Below are positions 11,781 through 41,966 of a stretch of 64,000 nucleotides of DNA, one piece after another. Position numbers and translations under genes: made by a program. The DNA lies in NCBI GenBank assembly GCA_947587615.1, contig CANPYC010000009.1:1-64000 (forward strand). The letters run 5' to 3'. The stretch's first letter is position 1. Each line of letters begins with the position of its first letter. Origin of the DNA: Candidatus Gastranaerophilales bacterium (GTDB taxonomy: Bacteria > Cyanobacteriota > Vampirovibrionia > Gastranaerophilales > Gastranaerophilaceae). The notes beneath the pieces are model-generated. The model did not search any database. It worked only from the letters and a program-made list of their open reading frames with translations, and had not been told where the DNA came from.

Positions 11781-12016
11781 CTTTTTTCCTTTCTTTGTAT
11801 TTACAAAAACGCTGAAAGAAAAAATTTGCTCATTTGATTACAAAAAAGTTAATATTTTCTAATACGTTATGAAGCTTAACATACTCTTTTCAAAATATTA
11901 AAAATACTATATAATTAAGTAAACTTTTGTAAATATATGCTTATGTTGTAACACTTTATTTTTTCACCTTACTTTAATAAAACAACAAAATGCATGTGCA
12001 AAAACCAGAGGTTAAA

Positions 12017-12334
12017 ATGAATTTTAAAAATTTTAAAATAGTTAGAAAATTAAAAGATTTAAGCCCGACAAGATTAAAATTGGCAATGTTTCAAGGTATT
12101 CAAGACTGTAAAATTGCTTCAAGATACATTGACTATTTAATTCCCGAAGAAAATAAAGGAATAAATAAGGATAATGAAAAACTTGAAAAGATGGTAAGAG
12201 ATACCCTGATTAAAGAATTTTCTCCCAAGATTAAAGATATGAAGTCTTTAGAATTGTTAGTTGACGCAACTGTTCATAATATTAAACAAAAGCAGCTTAA
12301 AGCAATGGGCGGTTGGGAAGATATAGAATTATAA
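12017..12334 (+). CDS. Small basic protein of unknown function
   Basis: A 105-residue, Lys-rich protein. ATG 12017 is preferred over the in-frame ATG at 11990, since AGAGG lies seven bases upstream of the former. It is predicted mainly helical (LSPTRLKLAMFQGIQDCKIASRY, then two amphipathic helices) and has no membrane segment or known motif. It is followed by a long gap and a strong bidirectional terminator. I cannot assign a function. Confidence 0.5.
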   Translation: MNFKNFKIVRKLKDLSPTRLKLAMFQGIQDCKIASRYIDYLIPEENKGINKDNEKLEKMVRDTLIKEFSPKIKDMKSLELLVDATVHNIKQKQLKAMGGWEDIEL

Positions 12335-12508
12335 GCTTTAATAATTAATCTTATTATTTGTGTGTCGGTGTTGAAAGATATGGCGGCTTGAGTGTCCGCT
12401 TGTAAAATATAAATTATATTTATAGGGATTTTTGGATGTTTTAATCAAAGCAAATATTCCTTATAAAACTTGTATTATTTTGATATCAGAGTTTATTAAG
12501 TTGAAGAT

Positions 12509-12554
12509 AAATTTAATCCGTTATTATTTTATAGTTTAATAACGGATTAAATTT
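12509..12554. terminator. Strong bidirectional hairpin between convergent genes
   Basis: A perfect 18-base-pair inverted repeat: AAATTTAATCCGTTATTA at 12509-12526 and its complement at 12537-12554, with a 10-base loop. T-rich tracts follow on the plus strand. It lies between the small plus-strand gene ending at 12334 and the end of the GH13 operon at 12589, so it serves both. The 150 bases before it (12335-12508) show no gene. Confidence 0.85.
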
Positions 12555-31322: not shown

Positions 31323-32474
31323 TTATAAGCTTTTTAAATCGTAAAATGCCTTTGGCTCTTTTGTATCTTTTTTCAATCTATTCAACAACAAAAGCGTTGT
31401 TTTATAATAATTATCCGCACAATTAGGCTTATAGTAAGGGTTTTTGGGTTTTATTGTTTTATAATCTCTAAGAACCTTCTCAATTGCTTCTTTAATCTCT
31501 TCAAGAGTACATCTTGCATTAATTACGCTGTTTGCTTGTATTCTTCCTTGCTGTCTGTCCCCTATATTTACTGTATAAATACCTAAAGACGGAGCTTCGA
31601 TAATTCCCGAAGAAGAGTTACCGATTAAGCAAATTGAGTTTTTTAGCAAATAGTGATATCCTGCTGTCGGCAGGTTTTCTATATATTTTGTATTGGAATT
31701 ATTTTTTACATATTCCTTAACTTTTTGTCTTATAATTTGTGAATGTGTGTCAGCATTTGAGCCTAAAAAAACAAAGTTATAATCCTTAAAGCAATCAATT
31801 GCGCCTAAAAGATTGTTTATTTGCTCAAGCGGATTAACATTAGTTAATGTTTCCGGGTGAAAAAGTACCGTAAAATAATTTTTTAAACCTTTTATATCAT
31901 TTGGCACTTTGTCTTCTTCAATCAGCATACAATTCTCAGCCCCTAAAGCGCCCAAATCAAAAACCCTTTCAGGGTTTTCACCAAGTTGAATTATTCTGTT
32001 TGCATACTCTTTTGTTGAAGCAAAGTGGTACAGGCTCATTTTAGTAATTGAGTGGCGGATAAATTCATCATAATTTGCGTTTGTTGCTTCTCCTCCGTGC
32101 AAGTGGAGTATGGGAAGTTTTTGCATGGCTGCTGCGAGCGCAAAAGACATAATTTCAAATCTGTCTCCAAGAATAATAACCAAATCATATTTATTATCTT
32201 CAAACCATTCGCCCGCCTTATCAAGTGCGCATGACATTGCTTTAAGAGTATCCGATACTTTTGTGGAATTTAGCGGAATTTCAATTTTAGCGTCAATTTT
32301 AAAACCGTCTTGTTCAATTAAATCAACCTGATGACCGTATTCATCGGATAACAGTGCGCCTGTTGTAATTATTCTTAAATCAATATTTTTATCATTATTT
32401 AAAAGGTTTAAATATCTTCTTACTATTCCCCAGTCGGCACGTGAACCTGTAATATATGCAATTTTTTTAGTCAT
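31323..32474 (-). CDS. neuC: UDP-GlcNAc 2-epimerase (hydrolysing), NeuC
   Basis: A 383-residue enzyme releasing ManNAc from UDP-GlcNAc, the first step of sialic acid synthesis. It starts KKIAYITGSRADWGIVRRYL (the NeuC signature GSRADWG) and has LVIILGDRFEIMSFALAA, LHLHGGEATNANYDEFIRHS, and the later GNSSSGIIEAP of the GT-B epimerase fold. Overlap with neuA is eight bases. A LegG-type activity on GDP-GlcNAc is the alternative, but the other legionaminic acid genes (legB, legC, legH) are not in the window. Confidence 0.9.
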   Translation of the reverse strand: MTKKIAYITGSRADWGIVRRYLNLLNNDKNIDLRIITTGALLSDEYGHQVDLIEQDGFKIDAKIEIPLNSTKVSDTLKAMSCALDKAGEWFEDNKYDLVIILGDRFEIMSFALAAAMQKLPILHLHGGEATNANYDEFIRHSITKMSLYHFASTKEYANRIIQLGENPERVFDLGALGAENCMLIEEDKVPNDIKGLKNYFTVLFHPETLTNVNPLEQINNLLGAIDCFKDYNFVFLGSNADTHSQIIRQKVKEYVKNNSNTKYIENLPTAGYHYLLKNSICLIGNSSSGIIEAPSLGIYTVNIGDRQQGRIQANSVINARCTLEEIKEAIEKVLRDYKTIKPKNPYYKPNCADNYYKTTLLLLNRLKKDTKEPKAFYDLKSL

Positions 32475-33162
32475 TGATATATTTTTCCTTTATTATTTGA
32501 GCAAGCTCTAAATCAATTATATTGTCAATATCAATTGATGAAAGTTCATCCATAATATATGCTATACTTTTTTCTCCGTAAAAATGTTTTTGAGATAAAT
32601 ATTCTTTAATTTTTGCAATATAAATAGCGCCGTTAGGGCTGTAATCGTTATAGTCTTGCCTTCTGTATCTTGAATAATCAATATTAAAATATTTCATGGA
32701 ATTATCTTCACCCAAAGCATGAACAAGTACCGAAGGCTGATGAGCTTTAACTACGGAGGATAGAAAATCAAACTTATTATAATTCTTTTCAAAAAGCTCA
32801 AGCGCTTCTTTTATATGTTTTTCGTTTCTTAAAGGCGAAGTCGGCTGAAGCAGAACAAAATAGTTTATATTTTCATCTTTTGTTCTTTTTAAAATATCTT
32901 CTATAACGTCATACGTGGGAGTATTGTCTTGAGCCAGATGACAAGGGCGCATGATTATATCCGCACCATAAGTTTTTGCAATTTGCGCATATTTTTCAGA
33001 CTCGGTTGAAACGTATACTTTTTCAAATGCACCGCTTTTAAGCGCCGCTTCAATTGAGTGCGCCATTAAAGGCTTAGAACATAAAAGCGCAATATTTTTA
33101 TCTTTTAGCCCTTTAGAACCTGAACGGGCAGGAATTATCGCTATTTTTTTTAATTTTTGCAT
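32467..33162 (-). CDS. neuA: CMP-N-acylneuraminate cytidylyltransferase, NeuA
   Basis: A 231-residue CMP-sialic acid synthetase. The N-terminal nucleotide-binding loop is IIPARSGSKGLKDKNI, and the family's YFVLLQPTSPLRNEKHI and DYSPNGAIYIAK are present. It activates the sugar with CTP for the transferases encoded upstream. Ends overlap both neighbours: 13 bases with the SGNH hydrolase and eight with neuC, so the operon is translationally tight. No extra acetylhydrolase domain, unlike E. coli K1 NeuA. Confidence 0.92.
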   Translation of the reverse strand: MQKLKKIAIIPARSGSKGLKDKNIALLCSKPLMAHSIEAALKSGAFEKVYVSTESEKYAQIAKTYGADIIMRPCHLAQDNTPTYDVIEDILKRTKDENINYFVLLQPTSPLRNEKHIKEALELFEKNYNKFDFLSSVVKAHQPSVLVHALGEDNSMKYFNIDYSRYRRQDYNDYSPNGAIYIAKIKEYLSQKHFYGEKSIAYIMDELSSIDIDNIIDLELAQIIKEKYIND

Positions 33163-33881
33163 ATATTTTCTTCCAATATCTCTTTCAGTTTTTCATAACC
33201 CGCTTCGCTTAAATGAAGCCCGTCGGGTGTGTAAATTTCTTTCAGATTTCCGTTTGCGTCGTTCATTTCATCGGCTGAAATATACTTTACATCTTTTGGA
33301 AAGTTTTTCTTAACGTATGAATTAAGCTCATTTATAACTTTGTTATCTCTATCTTTTCTGTTATTTACGTTTAGGGTTGCAATATAGAATATATTAGCAT
33401 TACTATCATTCTTTTTTATGTAGTCCGTAAGTATTTTCAGCTCTTTTGATATTTCTTCGCTTGTCCTGTTGTAAACTATGTCATTTGTTCCTCCGAGGAT
33501 TATGTAATATTTTGAATTACATTTCAAAAGATTTTTTTCTAAAATCTGTTCACGATACTCTACCATTGAAATTCCGTTTATGCCGCAATTTCTTACTTTT
33601 AAACCGAGAAGCTCGTCAATATTCCACCTGTGAAACTGTGAATGACCGATAAGACAAACTGAATTTGTAACATTTGCGCTATTTTTCAGTATCGGAGTTT
33701 TATCTTTTACAATTTTTTTTACTGTTTCTTTAATTACCAAACTTTTATGAATACTCATTTTTTCAACAAAAGTCTGCATTTTTAATTCCTTACCCCCCCC
33801 TCTTTTTGCTAAAAGAAAAAAATTTGCTAAATTTTTTATAAAATTATTCCAAGTAGTATAACAATAATATTTAAAAAGCAT
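33150..33881 (-). CDS. SGNH/GDSL hydrolase, possible sialate O-acetylesterase
   Basis: A 243-residue frame with SGNH blocks: IGHSQFHRWN (block I Ser), GGTNDI (Asn) and DGLHLSEAGY (catalytic Asp and His). Its place between neuB and neuA suggests it edits acetyl groups on the sugar. Two starts compete. ATG 33881 overlaps the neuB stop (TAATG) and reads a G8 tract as Gly28-30. ATG 33779 lies just after the tract and has its own AAGGAA site; from it the protein is 209 residues and retains all catalytic blocks. The 34-residue extension is hydrophobic and poorly conserved in look, so 33779 may be the main start. The tract could decide which form is made. Confidence 0.8.
   Translation of the reverse strand: MLFKYYCYTTWNNFIKNLANFFLLAKRGGGKELKMQTFVEKMSIHKSLVIKETVKKIVKDKTPILKNSANVTNSVCLIGHSQFHRWNIDELLGLKVRNCGINGISMVEYREQILEKNLLKCNSKYYIILGGTNDIVYNRTSEEISKELKILTDYIKKNDSNANIFYIATLNVNNRKDRDNKVINELNSYVKKNFPKDVKYISADEMNDANGNLKEIYTPDGLHLSEAGYEKLKEILEENICKN
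33793..33800 (-). repeat. Homopolymeric G8 tract before SGNH ribosome site
   Basis: Eight G residues on the coding strand, followed by TAAGGAATTAAAAATG. In the frame from ATG 33881 a gain of one G puts TAA directly after the tract, and a loss of one G gives TAA three codons later. Translation could then restart at ATG 33779, so tract length may set which N-terminus is made. Confidence 0.75.
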
Positions 33882-34906
33882 TAAAAGCCCTCCATAGTAA
33901 TCAGTTCGTCTTCTTCAAAGTCACAGTGCGCTTTTTTTCCTAATACCTCATACCAACTCATAGGGCTGATACCGTTACCCGGGCGCTTGGTTGTAATATT
34001 TTCAAGCGTTAAAAGCTCACCTTTTTTTATGGCACACTTTGCAACAATGGATTTTCTTGCTGCGATTTTATTTTTTTCTTCAGAGTTTGTAACAATTTTT
34101 TTAGATGAACCCATCATTTTTTCAATTCGTCTGACATTTTGACAAAGAAGCATTAAATCTTGAGGATCTGCAGAGGCTTTATGATCAGGGCCTTGCATAT
34201 TTTTATCAAGGGTAAAATGTTTTTCAATCATACATATACCCATCGCTGCGGCGCCAAGCGCCGCAATATAGCCTCTTGAGTGATCGGAAAAGCCGATTTT
34301 AAATTTTGGAAAATTATTTTTTAAATCATATATTGCGCCGAGGTTTATTTCTTCATCCTCTGCCGGATATTGCGTAGTACAGTGCAGAATTATGATTTCA
34401 TCTTCTTTTGTGCCGTTTTTAATCAAGATATCAATTGCCGTTTTAATTTCTTGAATTGTTGCCATGCCTGTTGATAAGATAATTTTTTTATTATCGCATT
34501 CAATTGAGCCGATTTTTTCTAAGTAGGGAAGGTTTGTAATTTCTCCCGAGGGAATTTTCCAAACGCTTTGTTTATTTTTATTTAGAAAATCAATTGATTT
34601 TAAATCAAAAGGGGTTGAAAAAACAATAAGCCCGAGGCTTGAAGCGTATTCTTTAAGCTTTAAGTATTCATCCCCTTTAAGCTCAAGCTTTTTTGTCATC
34701 TCAAGTTGAGTATCTTTTGTTCCTGTTGTAATTTCCTGATAGGGTGCTTTTGGAGCATAGCGTGAGATTAAATCTTCAGAATTAAAAGTTTGAAATTTAA
34801 CGCCGTCAACCCCGCATTCTTTAGCCTTTGCAACCATTTCACGAGCAAGATTATAATTTCCGTTATGGTTGCAGCCGATTTCGGCAATGATAAGTATTTT
34901 AGACAT
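33881..34906 (-). CDS. neuB: N-acetylneuraminate synthase NeuB
   Basis: A 341-residue enzyme condensing ManNAc with phosphoenolpyruvate. Family marks: ILIIAEIGCNHNGNYNLAREM, GVKFQTF, STPFDLKSIDFL, KIPSGEITNLPYL, STGMA, ILHCTTQYPAE, GFSDHSRGYIAALGAAAMG and IEKHFTLDKNMQGPDHKAS, then a C-terminal SAF (antifreeze-like) domain from about residue 280 (ARKSIVAKCAIKKGELLT). The ATG lies 10 bases after the neuD stop, downstream of a G9 tract and an AGGA site. Its stop overlaps the SGNH hydrolase ATG. LegI-type specificity is possible, but the neighbours fit Neu5Ac. Confidence 0.93.
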   Translation of the reverse strand: MSKILIIAEIGCNHNGNYNLAREMVAKAKECGVDGVKFQTFNSEDLISRYAPKAPYQEITTGTKDTQLEMTKKLELKGDEYLKLKEYASSLGLIVFSTPFDLKSIDFLNKNKQSVWKIPSGEITNLPYLEKIGSIECDNKKIILSTGMATIQEIKTAIDILIKNGTKEDEIIILHCTTQYPAEDEEINLGAIYDLKNNFPKFKIGFSDHSRGYIAALGAAAMGICMIEKHFTLDKNMQGPDHKASADPQDLMLLCQNVRRIEKMMGSSKKIVTNSEEKNKIAARKSIVAKCAIKKGELLTLENITTKRPGNGISPMSWYEVLGKKAHCDFEEDELITMEGF

Positions 34907-34915
34907 AATAATATC

Positions 34916-35554
34916 CTACCCCCCCCCTCTAACAGATTTAATAATTTTAGCGGGAACACCTGCAACGGTTGTATTCGATTCAACATTTCTAATTACAACC
35001 GCACCCGCTCCAACGGTTGCCCATTGCCCGATTTCAATTTGACCTATTGAAACTGAAGAACTCCCGATAAAGCTTCCGTCTTGAACCTTGACATCCCCGT
35101 TAAGAATTGAATAAGTGGAGACGTTGACATGATTTCCGACAAAACACCCGTGCTCAACTAAAGCGCCCGTGTTTATAATGCAATTATAGCCGATTTTAGC
35201 GCCACTATTTATTATTGCACGCTTGCCGACAAAAATACTTCCTTCTTTTGATAATTCCGCATTGGGGGATACTATTGCAGAGTTATCAATTACGTTGATT
35301 ATTTCTAAGTTGTGTGATTTTAATAAATCATACCATCTTTTTCTGTTGATGTTATTTCCAACGGCTATAAAATAAACATAATCTTTAGGGTTTTTTAAAT
35401 CGGCAAATTTATTGCATAAAACGCTGTAGCCCATATGTTCTTTTTTATTAGAAAATTCATCAATAAAACCCGTCATTTGTATTTTGTTTTTATCAACGGA
35501 ATCTAAAACTGATTTTGAGTACCCGCCCGCACCTATTATAATAAGTTTTTTCAT
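34916..35554 (-). CDS. neuD: NeuD-type sialic acid O-acetyltransferase (hexapeptide)
   Basis: A 212-residue protein with a short Rossmann-like start IIIGAGGYSKSVLDSVD and a left-handed beta-helix of hexapeptide repeats (from about residue 100: GSIFVGKRAIINSGAKIGYN, VEHGCFVGNHVNVS) ending VAGVPAKII. NeuD-family proteins O-acetylate sialic acid or related sugars using acetyl-CoA. It is first in the neu operon and has AAGGAA before its ATG. The last codons are a G9 tract followed at once by TAG. One G fewer would remove this stop and extend the protein about 50 residues into neuB in another frame. Confidence 0.88.
   Translation of the reverse strand: MKKLIIIGAGGYSKSVLDSVDKNKIQMTGFIDEFSNKKEHMGYSVLCNKFADLKNPKDYVYFIAVGNNINRKRWYDLLKSHNLEIINVIDNSAIVSPNAELSKEGSIFVGKRAIINSGAKIGYNCIINTGALVEHGCFVGNHVNVSTYSILNGDVKVQDGSFIGSSSVSIGQIEIGQWATVGAGAVVIRNVESNTTVAGVPAKIIKSVRGGG
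34919..34927 (-). repeat. Homopolymeric G9 tract at neuD stop and neuB leader
   Basis: Nine G residues on the coding strand form the last three neuD codons, then TAGGATATTATTATG, which holds the neuD stop, the neuB ribosome site and the neuB ATG. Slippage therefore changes where neuD ends relative to neuB and may switch translational coupling. The layout (poly-G, TA, GGA, ATG) matches the tract before the SGNH gene. Confidence 0.8.
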
Positions 35555-35575
35555 TTAGATTTTTCCTTTATGAAT

Positions 35576-35620
35576 ATGATAATATAAAAAAATAATTGGT
35601 GATAGTGTGAATTTTAAATT
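35576..35620 (-). promoter_or_regulatory. Conserved upstream block, copy A (neuD promoter candidate)
   Basis: A 45-base block nearly identical to those upstream of two transferase genes (38583-38627 and about 40106-40150). On the minus strand it reads CCAATT, a T run, then TATATTATC, about 20 bases from each gene's start, which suits a -10 element. No convincing -35 box is seen. Conservation among three places with the same spacing argues for a shared promoter or regulator site. Confidence 0.5.
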
Positions 35621-35645
35621 GCTTGTCAGTGGATTGAAGTTATCA

Positions 35646-35712
35646 GCAGACTAAAGTCTACCCTACTTTTGATGGAGATTATAATACCTGTAGGGTGGAC
35701 TTCGCTCCACCG
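35646..35712. repeat. Nested palindromic repeat, copy 1
   Basis: Left palindrome GCAGACTAAAGTCTACC then CCTAC, a 22-base spacer, then TGTAGGGTGGACTTCGCTCC and ACCG. The two ends are also inverted repeats of one another (CCTAC/GTAGGG), so the unit can fold as one long arm or two small hairpins. Lies in the 479-base gap 35555-36033, which has no gene. Confidence 0.8.
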
Positions 35713-35761
35713 TTTCTGCTGCATTTGACAGTATATTTTAAATCTGTTGATGCTAGTTATC

Positions 35762-35829
35762 GGTAGACTAAAGTCTACCCTACTTTTGATGGAGATTATA
35801 ATACCTGTAGGGTGGACTTCGCTCCACCG
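35762..35829. repeat. Nested palindromic repeat, copy 2
   Basis: Same unit as copy 1, with GGTAGACTAAAGTCTACC as left palindrome and the right half ending CTTCGCTCCACCG. The spacer (TTTTGATGGAGATTATAAT) is identical to copy 1, pointing to recent duplication. Confidence 0.8.
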
Positions 35830-35913
35830 TTTTTGTAGTCTGTGGAGATTAAAATCAAAACTTTCTTGTTGCTTATCTGTATCATTAGTTATCGGTAGAC
35901 TAAAGTCTACCCT
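35824..35913. repeat. 90-base direct repeat, left copy
   Basis: Matches 40347-40436 with about two differences over 90 bases, same orientation. It spans the end of palindromic unit 2, a unique linker (containing TTTCTTGTTGCTTATCTGT) and the start of half-unit 3. Two such copies 4.5 kb apart flank three transferase genes. Confidence 0.8.
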
Positions 35914-35915
35914 AC
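35894..35915. repeat. Palindromic half-unit, copy 3
   Basis: Only the left half of the repeat unit (GGTAGACTAAAGTCTACC plus CTAC) is present here, followed by TTTGACGGTATATTTTAAAT instead of the right half. It appears to be a truncated or rearranged copy. Confidence 0.7.
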
Positions 35916-35948
35916 ATTTGACGGTATATTTTAAATCTGTTGATGCTA

Positions 35949-36026
35949 GAGACTAAAGTTATCTAAAGTCTACCCTGCGTTTGACAGCTAGATTGTAATA
36001 TCCGTAGGGTGGACTTTAGTCCACCG
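35949..36026. repeat. Nested palindromic repeat, copy 4
   Basis: A variant whose left half is interrupted (AGACTAAAGTTATCTAAAG then TCTACCCTGC) and whose right half is a clean GTAGGGTGGACTTTAGTCC plus ACCG. It ends just before the stop of the downstream transferase gene at 36034, so its hairpin could also act on that transcript's 3' end. Confidence 0.7.
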
Positions 36027-36033
36027 TTTCTAT

Positions 36034-37284
36034 TTATTGATTTAGTATATCTTGCAAATATTTATTCTTAGAAAGAACAGGTTTATTATTTAAAAATTCT
36101 TCATATTTTCTTTTTAGTATTTCACTTACTTCTCTAAAAGATTTATTTTTTACGTCAAATGAAAGCATTTCATTTACATGGGGACAGTATTCTTTAATTA
36201 AATTTATTCCAAAATCTTTTTGTGCATGCTTTATAAGGTTTGCACAATTAAAACCCGGAATTTGATAGTAATGATACATATGTATTAATACTGATGAAAA
36301 TAATGAAACGACTGCGCAGCACTTATCTTTAAGATAATAGCACTCAAGCGGTAATTTTGTTTTTATAATTTTTATTTTATCACTATTTTTATATTCGTAT
36401 AAATCTCTCGGGTGTGGTTTAAAGTAAACAGTGTAACCGTGCAAAACAAGTTTTTCCATTACGGAATTTTGATATTCCTGCAATTCTTCAAACGTATAAT
36501 ACTGACCTGTTTTTATAGAGCAGAATGTTCCTAAGAATATAATATTTTTTTCATTTTCTTTCATTTTTATATCGAAAGGAATCATTTTACTTGCCTTGTT
36601 TGATATTTTTAAAAATTCTGATTTTTGTAAAGGAGTTATATTTTTACAAAAACCTTCTTTTTCCCCTGCGTAATCAAGTTTATTCAGATATATTGAAAAA
36701 AAGAAATTTTTAACATTCTTGTAATTTGAACTTTTAGCAGGAAACAAAGTGCAGCAGCCTTCCTCCGTAATATAGCGTTTTGCTTTAGGAAAATATCTGA
36801 CAAGCCTTCTAAATAGTCTGTGCCCGTTTGTGTAGTATATTTCATCAAAATCGGTAAGCATATTTTTTATGAAAAAGTATATAAATTCTTCATGATTAGT
36901 ATTGCAAAGTGAATAATAATGATGAATAGGAACGAGTGTTGATATTTTTTTCATTGTTTCTTCAAACTCGGGGAGTGCTTCAGACCAAACAACAAGACTA
37001 TTCTCGCAATTTTCTTTTAAATTCAGTTGATTAATCAATGCAAGAGAATTGACAAGATTAAAATTTCCGTTTGTTAAAATTAAACGTCTTGTTATACCGT
37101 CCGATTTTTTGTTTGTAAATTTTCTGTATTTTTGTTTGTATAAAGCAATCTCTTTTATGTATTTAAGATTGGAAATTTTTAAAGAAAAGCGAATAAAACC
37201 AATAGTTAATCTGTAACGAGTATATCGAATTTGGGTCTTTTTTGTAAAACAAAAAAATTTTTGATTGTTAAAATTTTGTTTCCT
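36034..37284 (-). CDS. Sialyltransferase-like paralogue 2, open frame without its own start
   Basis: Coding similarity to the neighbouring paralogues runs from just after the poly-C tract (about 37284) to the stop at 36034, about 416 residues. The frame has DEG in YITEEGCCTLFP, the HP motif in FKPHPRDLYEYK and the SS motif in VSLFSSVLIHMYHY, as in bacterial sialyltransferases. Between the tract and 37038 there is no ATG, GTG or TTG in frame; starting at TTG 37038 would lose the conserved RRLILTNGN segment. Where paralogues have ATG AAA, this gene has AGG AAA. Deletion of one C upstream would fuse it to the preceding gene, so its expression probably depends on tract length. Confidence 0.7.
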   Translation of the reverse strand, partial: RKQNFNNQKFFCFTKKTQIRYTRYRLTIGFIRFSLKISNLKYIKEIALYKQKYRKFTNKKSDGITRRLILTNGNFNLVNSLALINQLNLKENCENSLVVWSEALPEFEETMKKISTLVPIHHYYSLCNTNHEEFIYFFIKNMLTDFDEIYYTNGHRLFRRLVRYFPKAKRYITEEGCCTLFPAKSSNYKNVKNFFFSIYLNKLDYAGEKEGFCKNITPLQKSEFLKISNKASKMIPFDIKMKENEKNIIFLGTFCSIKTGQYYTFEELQEYQNSVMEKLVLHGYTVYFKPHPRDLYEYKNSDKIKIIKTKLPLECYYLKDKCCAVVSLFSSVLIHMYHYYQIPGFNCANLIKHAQKDFGINLIKEYCPHVNEMLSFDVKNKSFREVSEILKRKYEEFLNNKPVLSKNKYLQDILNQ

Positions 37285-38551
37285 TGGGGGGGGGGTCTAT
37301 AAGATTTTGCTTTTTACAATGGTTAGGAAGCTTGTTATATAAAAATTTATTTTCGCTTAATAATGGCTTGTTTTTAAGCCAATTTTCATATTTTTCAATT
37401 AGCTCATCTTGGACTTCTTTAAATGTTTTAAAACGTGCATCGACGGTTAAAAGCATATCGATATCGGGTGTGTATTCTTCAAGTATCAGTGTCGGAAAAT
37501 CATCTTTCGCATTTTTTAAAAAGTTAATTGAGGAAAACCCCGGTATTCCCTGATAATGATACATCTGGCATGAAGCCGATGAAAACACCGAAGCAACTGC
37601 GACAAAATTTTCTTTTAAAGGGTAGCACTCTAAAGGCAGTGTTGTTTTTAATAATTTAAAGTTTTTATCTTCCTTGTATTCGTATAAATCTCTGGGGTGA
37701 GGTTTAAAGTATACCTTGTAACCTTTTTGAGTAAGTTTTTTCATTAATTCAAGCTGATAGGATAATAATTCTTCAAATGTGTAAAAATTAGAAGTTTTCC
37801 CGTGGCAATATGTGCCTAAGAATATTATGTTTTTATCTTCTTTGTTTTGGGGTATATTGAGAGGATAGAGTTTTGAACATTTTTCTCCTGTTTTTATAAA
37901 TTCTTCTTTGGATAGTTCAACAACATTTTGACCAAATCCTTTTGTTGTACCTATTCTATCCAATTTATCAAGATATTTTGCCCAAATAAACCCGCTAACT
38001 TTTGTATAATCTATTCCATACATAGGATAAAGACAGCATACCCCTTCATCCGTTATATATCTTTTTGATTTAGGAAATAAATCCGCAAGATTTTGAAAAG
38101 GAATATGCCCGTTGGTAAAAAAGATTTCGTCAAAATTGCAAAGAAAATTATTTATAAAGTATGTTATCATTTTTTTGCTTTCAATATTGCAAAAAGAATA
38201 ATAATTTTTAACATCAAATTGCTTAACTATTTTTTTCATTGCTTCTTCAAAATCGCTTCTTGCTTGTGTGCAGGAAATTATACTGTTTTCATAGCGATTG
38301 TTTGAATTTATTTGATTAATTGCGCTAATGGAATTTATTAAATTCAGATTTCCGTTTGTAATTATCAAACGTCTTATAATTCCGTCGTTATTTTTTTCAA
38401 TGTATCTGTTGTATTTCTTTTTAAAAATTAAATATTTAAAATATAAAACCAAGCTGTTACATGCTTTAAAGGAAAATTTTATTCCAAAAAATCGGATTTT
38501 ATATTTTGAATAAAGCGCAAAAGATGTTTTTTCTATGTTAAGCAGTTTCAT
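37268..38551 (-). CDS. Sialyltransferase-like paralogue 1, C10 tract near 3' end
   Basis: A 427-residue transferase-like protein. The N-terminal segment IIRRLIITNGNLNLINSISA is shared by all four paralogues. Sialyltransferase marks are the acidic DEG motif (YITDEGVCCLYP), the HP motif (YFKPHPRDLYEYK), LPLECYPL and ASVFSSASCQMYHYQGIPGF. This fits GT52/polysialyltransferase-type enzymes, using CMP-sialic acid from the adjacent neu genes; acceptor unknown. ATG 38551 is preceded by GGAAG at five bases. Near the C-terminus the frame passes through C10 (DPPPKETKF, then stop). With C9 the frame continues into paralogue 2 as one protein of roughly 840 residues. Confidence 0.75.
   Translation of the reverse strand: MKLLNIEKTSFALYSKYKIRFFGIKFSFKACNSLVLYFKYLIFKKKYNRYIEKNNDGIIRRLIITNGNLNLINSISAINQINSNNRYENSIISCTQARSDFEEAMKKIVKQFDVKNYYSFCNIESKKMITYFINNFLCNFDEIFFTNGHIPFQNLADLFPKSKRYITDEGVCCLYPMYGIDYTKVSGFIWAKYLDKLDRIGTTKGFGQNVVELSKEEFIKTGEKCSKLYPLNIPQNKEDKNIIFLGTYCHGKTSNFYTFEELLSYQLELMKKLTQKGYKVYFKPHPRDLYEYKEDKNFKLLKTTLPLECYPLKENFVAVASVFSSASCQMYHYQGIPGFSSINFLKNAKDDFPTLILEEYTPDIDMLLTVDARFKTFKEVQDELIEKYENWLKNKPLLSENKFLYNKLPNHCKKQNLIDPPPKETKF
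37286..37295 (-). repeat. Homopolymeric C10 tract joining paralogues 1 and 2
   Basis: Ten C residues on the coding strand (G10 on plus). State C10: paralogue 1 stops eight residues after the Asp codon that ends in the first C. State C9: GAC CCC CCC CCA AGG AAA enters the frame of paralogue 2. State C11: a different tail of under 30 residues. This is the longest G/C run that I found in the window. Confidence 0.85.
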
Positions 38552-38582
38552 TTTAACTTCCAAAATAAATTGTTATAGGATT

Positions 38583-38627
38583 ATGATAATATAAAAAAAT
38601 AATTGGTGATAGTGTGAATTTTAAATT
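38583..38627 (-). promoter_or_regulatory. Conserved upstream block, copy B
   Basis: Copy of the block before neuD (35576-35620), nearly identical through ATAATTGGTGATAGTGTG. It lies about 32 bases upstream of the paralogue 1 ATG, and is a candidate promoter or shared regulator site. Confidence 0.5.
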
Positions 38628-38651
38628 GGTTGGTAGTTGATTGAAGTTGTC

Positions 38652-38721
38652 GGTAGACTAAAGTCTACCCTACATTTGATGGTTAGATTGTAATACCTGT
38701 AGGGTGGACTTCAGTCCACCG
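38652..38721. repeat. Nested palindromic repeat, copy 5
   Basis: A complete unit: GGTAGACTAAAGTCTACC at the left, GTAGGGTGGACTTCAGTCC plus ACCG at the right. In this copy the right half is a near-perfect palindrome (GGTGGACTTCAGTCCACC), so it probably shows the ancestral form. It lies in the gap 38564-38818, which has no gene. Confidence 0.8.
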
Positions 38722-38818
38722 TTTCTGCTTAAATATTAAAGTTAAATCTTTCCTAAAGCAGGGCGAGTTTCGCTTCATCCGATAACAAAATTACCCCCGC
38801 CTTACCGTTACAACCTTT

Positions 38819-39475
38819 TTAATACAAGACATTACGGAAATTCTCATATACTTTTTCTATCTTCCTGTTTTGCGACAACAAGGGCTTATCTTTAATAAAA
38901 TCCAAATATTCTTTGTTAATTTCATCTCTCAATTGTTCAAAAGTTTTTGATTTTGTATCAATCTTAAGAAGAATATTAACGTTTGGGCTATATTCTTTGA
39001 TAATATTAATTCCTATATCATTCTCAGCCTTTTTAATTAAATCAGCTGCGCAAAACCCCGCAATATTTTGATAATGATACATTTGACACAAAGCAGAAGA
39101 AAAAAGAGAAACAATTGCCAGGCACTTATCCTTTAAATTGTAGCATTCAAGAGGAAGCTTTGTTTTTAGAATTTTAAAATTTTCATTATCTTTATATTCT
39201 TTTAAATCTCTGGGGTGAGGTTTAAAATATACCTTATAGCCTTTTTCGATTAATTTTTTGATGATGGTGTTTTGATAAGCTGTTAATTCTTCAAAAGTAA
39301 AAAATTGAGAAGATTTTTTTGAGCAAAAAGTCGCAAGAAAGATTATGTTTTTATCGTTAGGATTAAGTTCAATATCAAGCGGATAGAGCTTTTCTAAGTT
39401 TGAAGAGGTTTTTAAAAATTCATCTTTGCTGATATTACAGCTTACCCCCCCCCTTCCAGTCGCTAAAAGCACCAA
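38819..39475 (-). CDS. Sialyltransferase-like paralogue 3, C-terminal part (out of frame)
   Basis: The C-terminal half of a transferase split by a G9 tract: SKDEFLKTSSNLEKLYPLDIE, the HP motif YFKPHPRDLKEYK, LPLECYNLKDKCLAIVSLFSS and QMYHYQNIAGF. The only upstream start is a GTG at 39475, with no convincing ribosome site. It has no DEG segment, which is in the other half. The segment around KTKLPLECYNLKDKCLAIVS is identical to that in paralogue 4, which suggests gene conversion. It is expected to be functional only when joined to the N-terminal half. Confidence 0.75.
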   Translation of the reverse strand: MVLLATGRGGVSCNISKDEFLKTSSNLEKLYPLDIELNPNDKNIIFLATFCSKKSSQFFTFEELTAYQNTIIKKLIEKGYKVYFKPHPRDLKEYKDNENFKILKTKLPLECYNLKDKCLAIVSLFSSALCQMYHYQNIAGFCAADLIKKAENDIGINIIKEYSPNVNILLKIDTKSKTFEQLRDEINKEYLDFIKDKPLLSQNRKIEKVYENFRNVLY

Positions 39476-40067
39476 TTCTGTCGATTTTATTTAAATAGTT
39501 CGCAAAATATATGTTTTTAATTTTTGAATAGTCAATAAAACTTGCGGGATATAGGGGGTTTATACCTTCATCGGTGATATTTTGAATAATATTGGGATAA
39601 AGCTTTGTAATTCTATGAAACAGCGCATGACCGTTGGTAAAATAGACTTCATCATAATCGGTTAGAAGATTATCGATAAAATATTTAACTACATAATCAT
39701 GGCTTTTGTTGCAAAAAGAAAGATATTTTTCTAAAGGTGTTGTATTACTTATATTTTTTAATACTTTTTCATATTCCTCATCAGCAGATGTCCAAACCAA
39801 AAGAGTGTTTTTAGAATTTTTGTCTAATTCAAGTTGGTTAATTAAACAAAGGGTGTTGATTAAATTTAAATTCCCGTTTGTTAAAAAGAGCCTTCTCACT
39901 GTATTGTCTTTTTTGCTTTTTGAATATTTTTTGTATTTGTAATTAAAAAGCATAAACTTAAACTTTTCTAATTTAAAAATTTTAAAAGAAAATTTTATGA
40001 AAAAAAATGTCAGCCTGATTTTTGTTTGAAAAAAGTCTGATGTTTTTTCAATGTTAAATAATTTCAT
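39435..40067 (-). CDS. Sialyltransferase-like paralogue 3, N-terminal part (phase OFF)
   Basis: The N-terminal half, starting MKLFNIEKTSDFF as in paralogue 1 (MKLLNIEKTSF), with VRRLFLTNGNLNLINTL and the DEG motif NITDEGINPLYP. It ends at a premature stop just after the tract (WKGGGKL, stop). In paralogue 1 the same place reads DRIGTTKGFGQNVVELSKEEF and continues. With G8 (one base fewer) this frame becomes WKGGVSCNISKDEF and runs on into the C-terminal half without any stop. The present sequence is therefore the OFF state of a phase-variable gene, or an assembly or consensus error in the tract. ATG 40067 is chosen; the frame extends to TTG 40088. Confidence 0.8.
   Translation of the reverse strand: MKLFNIEKTSDFFQTKIRLTFFFIKFSFKIFKLEKFKFMLFNYKYKKYSKSKKDNTVRRLFLTNGNLNLINTLCLINQLELDKNSKNTLLVWTSADEEYEKVLKNISNTTPLEKYLSFCNKSHDYVVKYFIDNLLTDYDEVYFTNGHALFHRITKLYPNIIQNITDEGINPLYPASFIDYSKIKNIYFANYLNKIDRIGAFSDWKGGGKL
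39445..39453 (-). repeat. Homopolymeric G9 tract inside paralogue 3
   Basis: Nine G residues on the coding strand. G9 gives AAG GGG GGG GGT AAG CTG TAA (stop). G8 gives AAG GGG GGG GTA AGC TGT, the frame of the C-terminal half. G11 would also restore it. This is the clearest coding-sequence switch of the set. Confidence 0.88.
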
Positions 40068-40105
40068 TTGAATTTTAATTTCCTGCAATAAACTGCTATA
40101 TGGTT

Positions 40106-40150
40106 ATGATAATATAAAAAAAATAATTGGTGGTAGAATAAATTTTTAAT
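40106..40150 (-). promoter_or_regulatory. Conserved upstream block, copy C
   Basis: Third copy of the block (ATGATAATATAAAAAA, ATAATTGGTG), with a few more differences than copies A and B, about 40 bases upstream of the paralogue 3 ATG. Confidence 0.45.
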
Positions 40151-40175
40151 TGATTGTTGGCAGACTGAAACTATT

Positions 40176-40197
40176 GGTAGACTAAAGTCTACCCTAC
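40176..40197. repeat. Palindromic half-unit, copy 6
   Basis: Left half only (GGTAGACTAAAGTCTACC plus CTAC), followed by the usual spacer (TTTGATGGAGATTATAAT) but then by TGATGCTAGAGACTAAAG instead of the right half. This is a sign of deletion or recombination inside the unit. Confidence 0.7.
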
Positions 40198-40280
40198 GTT
40201 TGATGGAGATTATAATACCTGTAGTTGATGCTAGAGACTAAAGTTATCTAAAGTTATCGGTATATTTTAAATCTGTTGAT

Positions 40281-40352
40281 GGTAGACTAAAGTCTACCCT
40301 ACGGCTTTGACATCTAGATTATAATATCCGTAGGGTGGACTTCAGTCCACCG
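40281..40352. repeat. Nested palindromic repeat, copy 7
   Basis: A complete unit with GGTAGACTAAAGTCTACC on the left and GTAGGGTGGACTTCAGTCC plus ACCG on the right; the spacer differs from other copies (GGCTTTGACATCTAGATTA). Part of the 510-base gene-free gap 40089-40598, which consists largely of repeats. Confidence 0.8.
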
Positions 40353-40436
40353 TTTTTGTAGTCTGTGGAGATTGAAATCAAAACTTTCTTGTTGCTTATC
40401 TGTATCATTAGTTATCGGCAGACTAAAGTCTACCCT
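40347..40436. repeat. 90-base direct repeat, right copy
   Basis: Partner of 35824-35913, same orientation, differing at about two positions. Recombination between the copies would delete about 4.5 kb, removing paralogues 1 and 2 and most of paralogue 3. Confidence 0.8.
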
Positions 40437-40485
40437 GCATTTGACAGTTAATTATAATATCCGTAGGGTGGACTTCGCTCCACCG
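40417..40485. repeat. Nested palindromic repeat, copy 8
   Basis: Left half GGCAGACTAAAGTCTACC (one change), right half ending GGACTTCGCTCCACCG. The variant CGCT in place of CAGT in the right half is shared with copies 1 and 2. Confidence 0.75.
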
Positions 40486-40598
40486 TCTTTATGGTTTAAC
40501 CCGTGTAATCTTTCTGAATATATACTTTCAAGCTCAAAGATTGCCTGCTGACACTCCTTTTAAAAATAAATTGTTATAATATTGCGACTTAATTAAAA

Positions 40599-41966
40599 TT
40601 ATTTGATTGTTTTATAATTCATAATGCCCCAATAATTTTTTAATTTTTTAGAATACAGCATAGCGGGAATATTTCTTTTTAAAGCGAATTTATGCAATTG
40701 AAGCTTGGAAAGATACCTGTCTTGGGGGGGGGTCTTGTAGCTTTTATATTTATTTATCAAGTACTTGTTTTTTGATAATAAAGGTTTTTTATTTATCCAA
40801 TTTTCGTACATGTTTAAAATTTCATCCCTGAGTTCGTTAAATGTTTTATTATTTGTATCAATTTCAAGAAGCATATCAACCGATGGACAATATTGTTCAA
40901 TCATGTTTATTCCTATGTCCGGTGCGTCTTTTATTAAATTGTTTAAAGAAAAAGCTGCGATTTTTTGATAATCATACATTTGACAGGATGTTGAAGAAAA
41001 AAGAGAAACAATTGCCAAACATTTATCTTTTAAATTGTAACATTCAAGAGGAAGTTTTGTTTTTAAAACTTTGAAATTCTCATTTTCGCTATACTTATAT
41101 GTATCTCTCGGATGAGGTTTGAAAATTATTTTATAGCCCTTTTTGATTAGCTTTTCAGTAATTGAGTTTTGATAATTTAATATTTCGCTAAAACTCCAAA
41201 TTCCAAGATTTGCCAATGTTGCACAAAAGATTATATTTTTATCTTCGCTGTTGAGGTTTATGTCAATGGGATAGAGCTGTTCGCATTTGTCTGCAATTTT
41301 TTTAAATTCATTTTTATTTATGAATATTAATTTTTCTTTGTTTTCTTCTTTGAGATTTAAAACATCAAATTTATTTAAATAGTTAAAAAATATCAAATTT
41401 TTAACATTTGAATAGTCTACGCCTTTATGTTCTAAAATTGTGCAAGCGCCTTCGTCGGTTACATAGTATTTTGAATAAGGAAAAAGTATATTAACCACCT
41501 CAAACATATATTTGCAGTTTGGAAAATAAACCTCGTCAAAATCAAATAAATAATTTTTTATAAAGAAAGAATATAAATCAATTATTTCAGTGTTGCAAAA
41601 TTCAAAAGTGCGCTTAAAGTTTTTAAATTTGCCTATTTGTCTGTTGATTTTTTTAAATTCATCGCTTCCCATGTGTGACCATACAAGAAGATTATTTTCG
41701 CCATCCGTTAAATTCAGTTGATTTATTATCGCAAGGTTGTTTATTAAACTTAAATTCCCTGAGGTTATGAATAATCTTTTTTTAAGGTTTTCGGGTTTTG
41801 GTGTGTTATTGTATTCTTCAAGTTTTTTTAAATATTTTTGATATTGAAAAATAAATTTAATAAAAGAGGGGTTTAAAAATTTAAAAGATATTTTTATTTT
41901 GAAGATATAAAGCTGATATTTAATGTATTTACCTGATTCTACACGTTTGAAATTAAAAATATTCAT
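40599..41966 (-). CDS. Sialyltransferase-like paralogue 4, C9 tract before tail
   Basis: A 455-residue paralogue: KKRLFITSGNLSLINNLAII, DEG motif YVTDEGACTILE, FKPHPRDTYKYS, LPLECYNLKDKCLAIVSLFSS and QMYDYQKIAAF. Here the usual TNGN is TSGN. The ATG has AGGATA upstream. At the position where paralogue 2 ends, the frame enters a C9 tract (YKTPPQDRY) and continues 41 residues with a basic tail. One C more or fewer gives tails of about 13 to 17 residues, so the tract mainly varies the C-terminus, not the catalytic part. It is the first gene of the transferase run and probably shares a transcript or promoter style with the others. Confidence 0.75.
   Translation of the reverse strand: MNIFNFKRVESGKYIKYQLYIFKIKISFKFLNPSFIKFIFQYQKYLKKLEEYNNTPKPENLKKRLFITSGNLSLINNLAIINQLNLTDGENNLLVWSHMGSDEFKKINRQIGKFKNFKRTFEFCNTEIIDLYSFFIKNYLFDFDEVYFPNCKYMFEVVNILFPYSKYYVTDEGACTILEHKGVDYSNVKNLIFFNYLNKFDVLNLKEENKEKLIFINKNEFKKIADKCEQLYPIDINLNSEDKNIIFCATLANLGIWSFSEILNYQNSITEKLIKKGYKIIFKPHPRDTYKYSENENFKVLKTKLPLECYNLKDKCLAIVSLFSSTSCQMYDYQKIAAFSLNNLIKDAPDIGINMIEQYCPSVDMLLEIDTNNKTFNELRDEILNMYENWINKKPLLSKNKYLINKYKSYKTPPQDRYLSKLQLHKFALKRNIPAMLYSKKLKNYWGIMNYKTIK
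40724..40732 (-). repeat. Homopolymeric C9 tract in paralogue 4 3' end
   Basis: Nine C residues on the coding strand read as ACC CCC CCC CAA. It is at the same relative place in the gene as the C10 tract of paralogue 1, suggesting that both descend from one duplicated junction. Confidence 0.75.

Follow-up and report, generated by a model that had tools for sequence, protein, structure and literature searches.

The 64,000-nucleotide stretch of DNA analysed here (the window) holds a run of ten cytosines between two complete paralogous sialyltransferase-type domains, encoded by T3 and T4, and the second of them has no start codon of its own. We propose that this C10 tract is probably a slipped-strand switch between T3 made alone and a T3-T4 fusion. 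What speaks for this is that T4 lacks a start codon and a leader, that T4 is intact, and that the tract lies between two complete domains.

Organization of the locus

Four related transferase genes, T1, T2, T3 and T4 in order of transcription, lie on the minus strand and are followed by NeuD, NeuB, a GDSL gene, a NeuA-like gene and NeuC (Table 1). The curated NCBIfam cutoffs were passed by NeuB and NeuC; the name NeuA comes from context only, and no NCBIfam model matched the transferases. Judged by gene content, the Neu5Ac pathway downstream of the T genes looks complete. The NeuB/NeuC donor pathway adjoins the T genes, for which polysialic acid synthesis is the predicted activity, and the function of a fused T3-T4 enzyme is predicted from family membership only. 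Among named genomes, the closest relatives belong to Candidatus Gastranaerophilales, and several of these come from samples labelled 'Lapin'. The T1-T2, T2-T3 and T4-NeuD gaps contain a few hundred bases of repeats; in the array gaps (35570-36040, 38576-38731, and 40098-40500) we observed the hairpin repeats GGTAGACT..AGTCTACC and GGTGGACT..AGTCCACC, adjoining the common leader described below. A NeuD gene 93% identical to that of the window (34916-35554) was seen at G160:C4:72859-73485, in a genome of a different genus, which suggests recent transfer of the sialic-acid locus.

Table 1. Features of the transferase array and the adjoining sialic-acid genes (window coordinates).
Feature	Position	Strand	Basis or remark
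T1, fourth PF07388 paralogue	40599..41966	(-)	PF07388 match above cutoff
C9 tract close to T1 3' end	40724..40732	(-)	
T2, third PF07388 paralogue; frame split by G9 tract (OFF)	38819..40067	(-)	Second half is the PF07388 match
G9 tract within T2	39445..39453	(-)	
Conserved leader 5' of T3	38552..38682	(-)	Repeat families D4/D14/D15; leaders compared by eye
T3 (paralogue 1 of the original prediction), complete PF07388 transferase, 427 aa at C10	37268..38551	(-)	
C10 homopolymer, proposed fusion switch	37286..37295	(-)	C9/C12 fused; C10/C11 T3 alone
T4 (paralogue 2 of the original prediction), complete PF07388 domain, ~415 codons and stop, without start codon	36034..37285	(-)	
NeuD acetyltransferase; G9 tract 34919-34927 at last codons	34916..35554	(-)	
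NeuB, N-acetylneuraminate synthase	33881..34906	(-)	TIGR03569
GDSL/SGNH hydrolase-like gene; G8 tract 33793-33800 close to start	33150..33881	(-)	
CMP-sialic acid synthetase-like (NeuA by context)	32467..33162	(-)	Best model PseF, under its cutoff
NeuC, UDP-GlcNAc 2-epimerase	31323..32474	(-)	TIGR03568

Tract phases and reading frames

Through the C10 tract the T3 frame reads GAC CCC CCC CCC AAG GAA ACA AAA TTT TAA (...QNLI D PPP KETKF and stop), so that T3 ends nine codons on when the Asp codon with the first C is counted. With C11 the T3 tail is 30 codons. With C9 or C12 the T3 frame continues into T4 through a Pro-containing linker (...NLIDPPPRKQNF...) to form a single ORF, of 838 residues at C9. 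The T4 frame runs CC CCC CCC CCA AGG AAA CAA and is open for 420 codons (36037-37296); at C10 it is closed by a TAG directly 5' of the tract, and in the C11 phase there is no start upstream for it. The T3 catalytic domain is whole at C9, C10, and C11. Since all three states leave T3 complete, what the tract length decides is whether a second catalytic domain is present, and it does not simply turn T3 on and off; in a classical on/off switch the upstream gene loses its product in one phase. The original prediction was borne out on these points: C10 ends the first paralogue just past the tract, C9 gives a two-domain transferase of about 840 residues, and tract length sets enzyme architecture and not merely an on/off state, which is supported as anatomy. 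Wherever a tract lies 5' of an open frame, one phase out of three will fuse, and the fusion at C9 is therefore in itself no evidence for a switch. Run through AlphaFold as a single sequence, the 838-residue fusion gave an uninformative model with a pLDDT of 33.

The assembly consensus, taken from one metagenome-assembled genome in which a second allele did not appear, is C10, the unfused state. A wrong tract length would leave either a gene that is always fused or a pair of normal genes, and although the assembly derives from metagenome reads and a homopolymer consensus can miss by one, we regard this as hardly credible: the anatomy of two domains, one tract and no second start holds under an error of one base, and a true C9 would be the fused state.

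Even if the tract were fixed at C10, part of the product could be fused by +1 ribosomal slippage on CCC or by RNA polymerase slippage, at a constant ratio and without a heritable switch. The shift required is indeed +1 (CCC A AGG), and CCC-N runs are +1-prone sites for tRNA-Pro. However, the T3 stop comes five codons after the tract and does not adjoin it as in typical programmed sites, and the genome-wide occurrence of long C/G tracts, described below, is better explained by DNA slippage, which leaves slippage at a fixed C10 an improbable account.

Start codon and leader of T4

A codon scan of the T4 frame agreed with the original prediction that no in-frame ATG, GTG, or TTG occurs between the tract and 37038, where the first such codon is a TTG at residue 86 of the frame. 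This TTG was rejected as the T4 start, as it would cut about 85 first residues of the fold. In the T4 model, residues 10-85 form strands and helices and include the first Rossmann strand. A start at 37038 would thus take away part of the core fold, namely the first Rossmann strand together with one helix and three further strands.

T2, T3, and NeuD share a common leader of ~107 nt followed by a Shine-Dalgarno-like sequence and ATG (families D4/D14/D15; by-eye comparison), and T3 accordingly has its own leader, Shine-Dalgarno sequence and ATG. Upstream of T4 neither leader nor Shine-Dalgarno sequence was found among the repeat families or in the by-eye comparison of leaders, and T4 abuts T3 without an intergenic gap. 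The near-cognate starts of T4 are ATT or ATA only. Separate translation of T4 from such a non-canonical start, or by reinitiation after the T3 stop, could draw on the in-frame ATT at codons 22, 31, and 34 and on the position of the T3 stop inside the T4 5' end. It is nevertheless very unlikely, as the ATT and ATA sites lack a Shine-Dalgarno sequence, the siblings use ATG with a leader, and in the structural model ATT starts would delete structured strands (residues 10-37).

With start, leader and Shine-Dalgarno sequence all missing, fusion is supported, as anatomy, as the only canonical route to full-length T4, in keeping with the earlier statement that it is the only evident one. The accompanying claim that an ancestral ATG AAA is kept as AGG AAA was not established: MAFFT aligned the sibling Met-Lys to T4 Gln7-Lys8 (CAA AAA), and the T4 N-terminus is too divergent for a decision on whether AGG derives from ATG.

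Conservation of T4

The PF07388 profile (curated cutoff 23.3 bits) scored 56.8 bits for T4, 39.2 for T3, 25.5 for T1, and 47.0 for the second half of T2. A search of solved-structure sequences with the family profile gave no match. The AlphaFold model of T4, computed with 21 relatives in the input, had a mean pLDDT of 92.2 and a pTM of 0.88; it matched GT-B enzymes including the Neisseria LOS sialyltransferase 2yk7, but not specifically. The D/E-D/E-G and HP motifs of bacterial sialyltransferases have been found essential by mutagenesis in the meningococcal polysialyltransferase (PMC2169525). Alignments read directly show DEG and HP in T3 and EEG and HP in T4, and E-G and H-P are invariant in 22 members.

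A leave-one-out comparison used 53 positions that do not vary among 13 close relatives; T4 was changed at 4 of them (0-5 for the other members), and all four changes were conservative (L/F, I/V, F/I, and L/M). Across 26 family members T4 was changed at none of 24 conserved positions. In the tree T4 falls with the T2/T3 clade, the grouping with T3 being weak (82/54), and its branch length was 0.71 vs. 0.60 for T3 from the same fork. Judged from these sequence comparisons T4 is not a decayed pseudogene, which agrees with what the original prediction needed of its second paralogue. An old pseudogene was rejected on the intact motifs, the open 420-codon frame and the ordinary branch length; had the start been lost only very recently, these conservation tests would look identical.

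Related genomes

The search covered a family-level and an order-level sample, which overlap and comprise 383 genomes each; 18 and 23 genomes, respectively, matched the query transferase. Single ORFs with two transferase domains, which the original prediction had proposed to look for in relatives, were found in one form and not in the other: GT2-polyST proteins occur, and no polyST-polyST ORF was present in either sample. ORFs of 787-845 aa in five genomes (G040, G128, G228, G162, and G073) carry one PF07388-type domain in the C-terminal half. The G040 protein is GT2 plus polyST by Pfam, the G228 sequence reads the same way, and the two-domain calls for G128, G162, and G073 were made by length and domain position. 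The predicted T3-T4 fusion product resembles these proteins in having a PF07388 domain as its C-terminal half, at a total size of 800-850 residues; unlike it, they are constitutive and without a tract, and they have a family-2 glycosyltransferase in the N-terminal half (by Pfam for G040 only). An 867-aa open frame in G086 was rejected as a polyST-polyST candidate, consisting of T1- and T2-like frames joined through a stop (446+1+420).

In G086 there are relatives of T1, T2, and T3, and NeuD comes immediately downstream of T3; in G024 the contig stops inside T3. A single-protein search of the genome contigs with T4 found no relative, and with these two arrays as they are T4 is left without a detected orthologue.

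A second tract between domains was found in G026 (L130, 3226-5472, G026:C23), where a C9 joins a complete aldo-keto reductase domain in frame to a complete radical-SAM domain; C8 ends the protein 5 codons on, and C10 15 codons on. Like T3-T4, this gene has its tract between complete domains, is fused in frame by C9 and keeps its first domain complete otherwise. Unlike in T3-T4, the two domains are non-homologous and the radical-SAM part has a downstream ATG as a possible start of its own. L128, a relative of L130, has both domains and a tract inside the reductase.

Homopolymeric tracts in the genome and genus

Genome-wide, we counted ~21 distinct C/G runs of at least 9 (24 overlapping 9-mer matches), against ~0.2 expected in 2.13 Mb by an independent-base estimate at the window's composition of 31.5% GC. 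The five runs of at least 8 in the window all lie within 33.8-40.7 kb. The C10 tract thus has one mark of homopolymer phase variation, being a long C/G run far beyond chance at a place where indels would alter the protein. Within the genus the tracts are unevenly distributed: 18 of 28 sampled genomes had no C/G run of at least 9, and four, including this one, had 24-45 matches. Tract-bearing genes in this genome encode glycosyltransferases, hexapeptide acyltransferases, an AlgX-like protein, FkbM methyltransferases, and a polysaccharide deacetylase; the tracts are mostly in surface-glycan genes.

We surveyed 118 tracts of at least 8 in fetched tract-bearing stretches, not every tract of every genome, from G000, G024, G025, G026, G086, G160, G255, and G344, with one from G120. 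Only one had homologous complete domains on both sides, namely T3-C10-T4 (48% identity over 392 columns). The T2 tract site is conserved in other genomes, as G9 with the frame open in G024, G12 open in G086, and G12 split in G160. The length of the T1 C9 tract sets a C-terminal tail of 44, 14, or 17-18 residues. Pro-codon C tracts near the 3' end of T1-like genes were observed in three genomes (40724-40732, L085:1765-1774, and L083:7892-7905), in each altering the tail only.

Tracts at the 3' end of polyST genes that fuse nothing thus recur (window 40724, G255 C10, and G160 C14); those of G255 and G160 were rejected as fusion switches after reading of the stretches, as no phase enters the next gene. 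This recurrence, the lack of a detected T4 orthologue with T4 absent from G086, and the variation in array content between genomes are what would be expected if T4 had recently lost its start and leader by deletion or recombination onto the T3 3' end, leaving a young pseudogene or silent recombination donor beside an incidental tract. T4 shows no decay in frame, motifs, or branch length, although a very recent loss would look alike, and we hold this explanation to be unlikely.

In G026, 5 of 28 tracts lay at most 100 nt from a contig end (binomial p ~5e-6), as did 2 of 15 in G025 (p 0.05). Such positions are consistent with length differences among reads; homopolymer assembly trouble could also put contig ends at tracts.

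Further tracts were seen in other genes. In G344 (G344:C23, L086:8185) a G10 tract sits where NeuD (11875-12511) splits into two overlapping frames, and NeuD itself may therefore be phase-variable there. A G tract lies just 5' of the apparent GDSL ATG in the window (G8, 33793-33800) and in G086 (G11, L081:2614), and a G9 tract in G160 (L084:10608) looks alike by size. From its position, the GDSL tract could influence coupling to the gene before it but would leave the catalytic domain untouched. At L045:12501-15900 three tandem genes each carry a G9 near the 3' end in the same sequence context, and the one scanned is an FkbM methyltransferase.

Discussion

Under the proposed slipped-strand switch, replication slippage would change the length of the C10 tract that separates the two complete catalytic domains. 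With C10 or C11, T3 would be made alone, with essentially no T4; with C9 or C12, the product would be a single protein of 838 residues carrying two sialyltransferase-type active sites. The sialic-acid surface glycan would probably change with it, for example by a second linkage or use of another acceptor. We infer variation of tract length in the population, production of the fusion and the effect on the glycan. The switch reading of the original prediction is carried by the anatomy and the context, that is the tract-rich genome and the interdomain C9 of G026, and its AGG-for-ATG argument is not supported. For the claim taken as a whole, a heritable and reversible switch between a one-domain and a two-paralogue enzyme that alters a glycan in non-photosynthetic relatives of Cyanobacteria, we see the odds as evenly balanced.

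In Neisseria meningitidis serogroup B, the polysialyltransferase gene siaD/csb is turned on and off by slipped-strand mispairing in a mononucleotide repeat (Hammerschmidt 1996, as cited in PMC8893959). There, as is predicted here, repeat slippage in a polysialyltransferase gene alters a sialic-acid surface glycan. Whereas the siaD/csb tract lies inside one gene, ours lies between complete paralogous domains and would set a one- vs. a two-domain enzyme. In the Campylobacter jejuni Type IIG restriction-modification gene Cj0031/Cj0032, indels in a polyG tract split one gene into two frames (PMC4889913). That system likewise has a homopolymer with conserved domains on either side, but both parts belong to one enzyme, whereas T3 and T4 are full paralogous enzymes, of which T3 stays complete whatever the state of the tract. 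Among open-licence papers, a literature search on Gastranaerophilales and phase variation found none.

Homopolymer phase variation is usually treated as on/off. From the anatomy of T3-T4, enzyme architecture is predicted to change while the first enzyme is retained throughout. This would be another kind of route to surface diversity, and the tract in G026 L130 is a second interdomain tract of note. A fusion switch of this kind is possibly a step toward permanent multidomain enzymes. The tracts described here also suggest that gut Gastranaerophilales carry a set of phase-variable glycan genes that has apparently escaped description.
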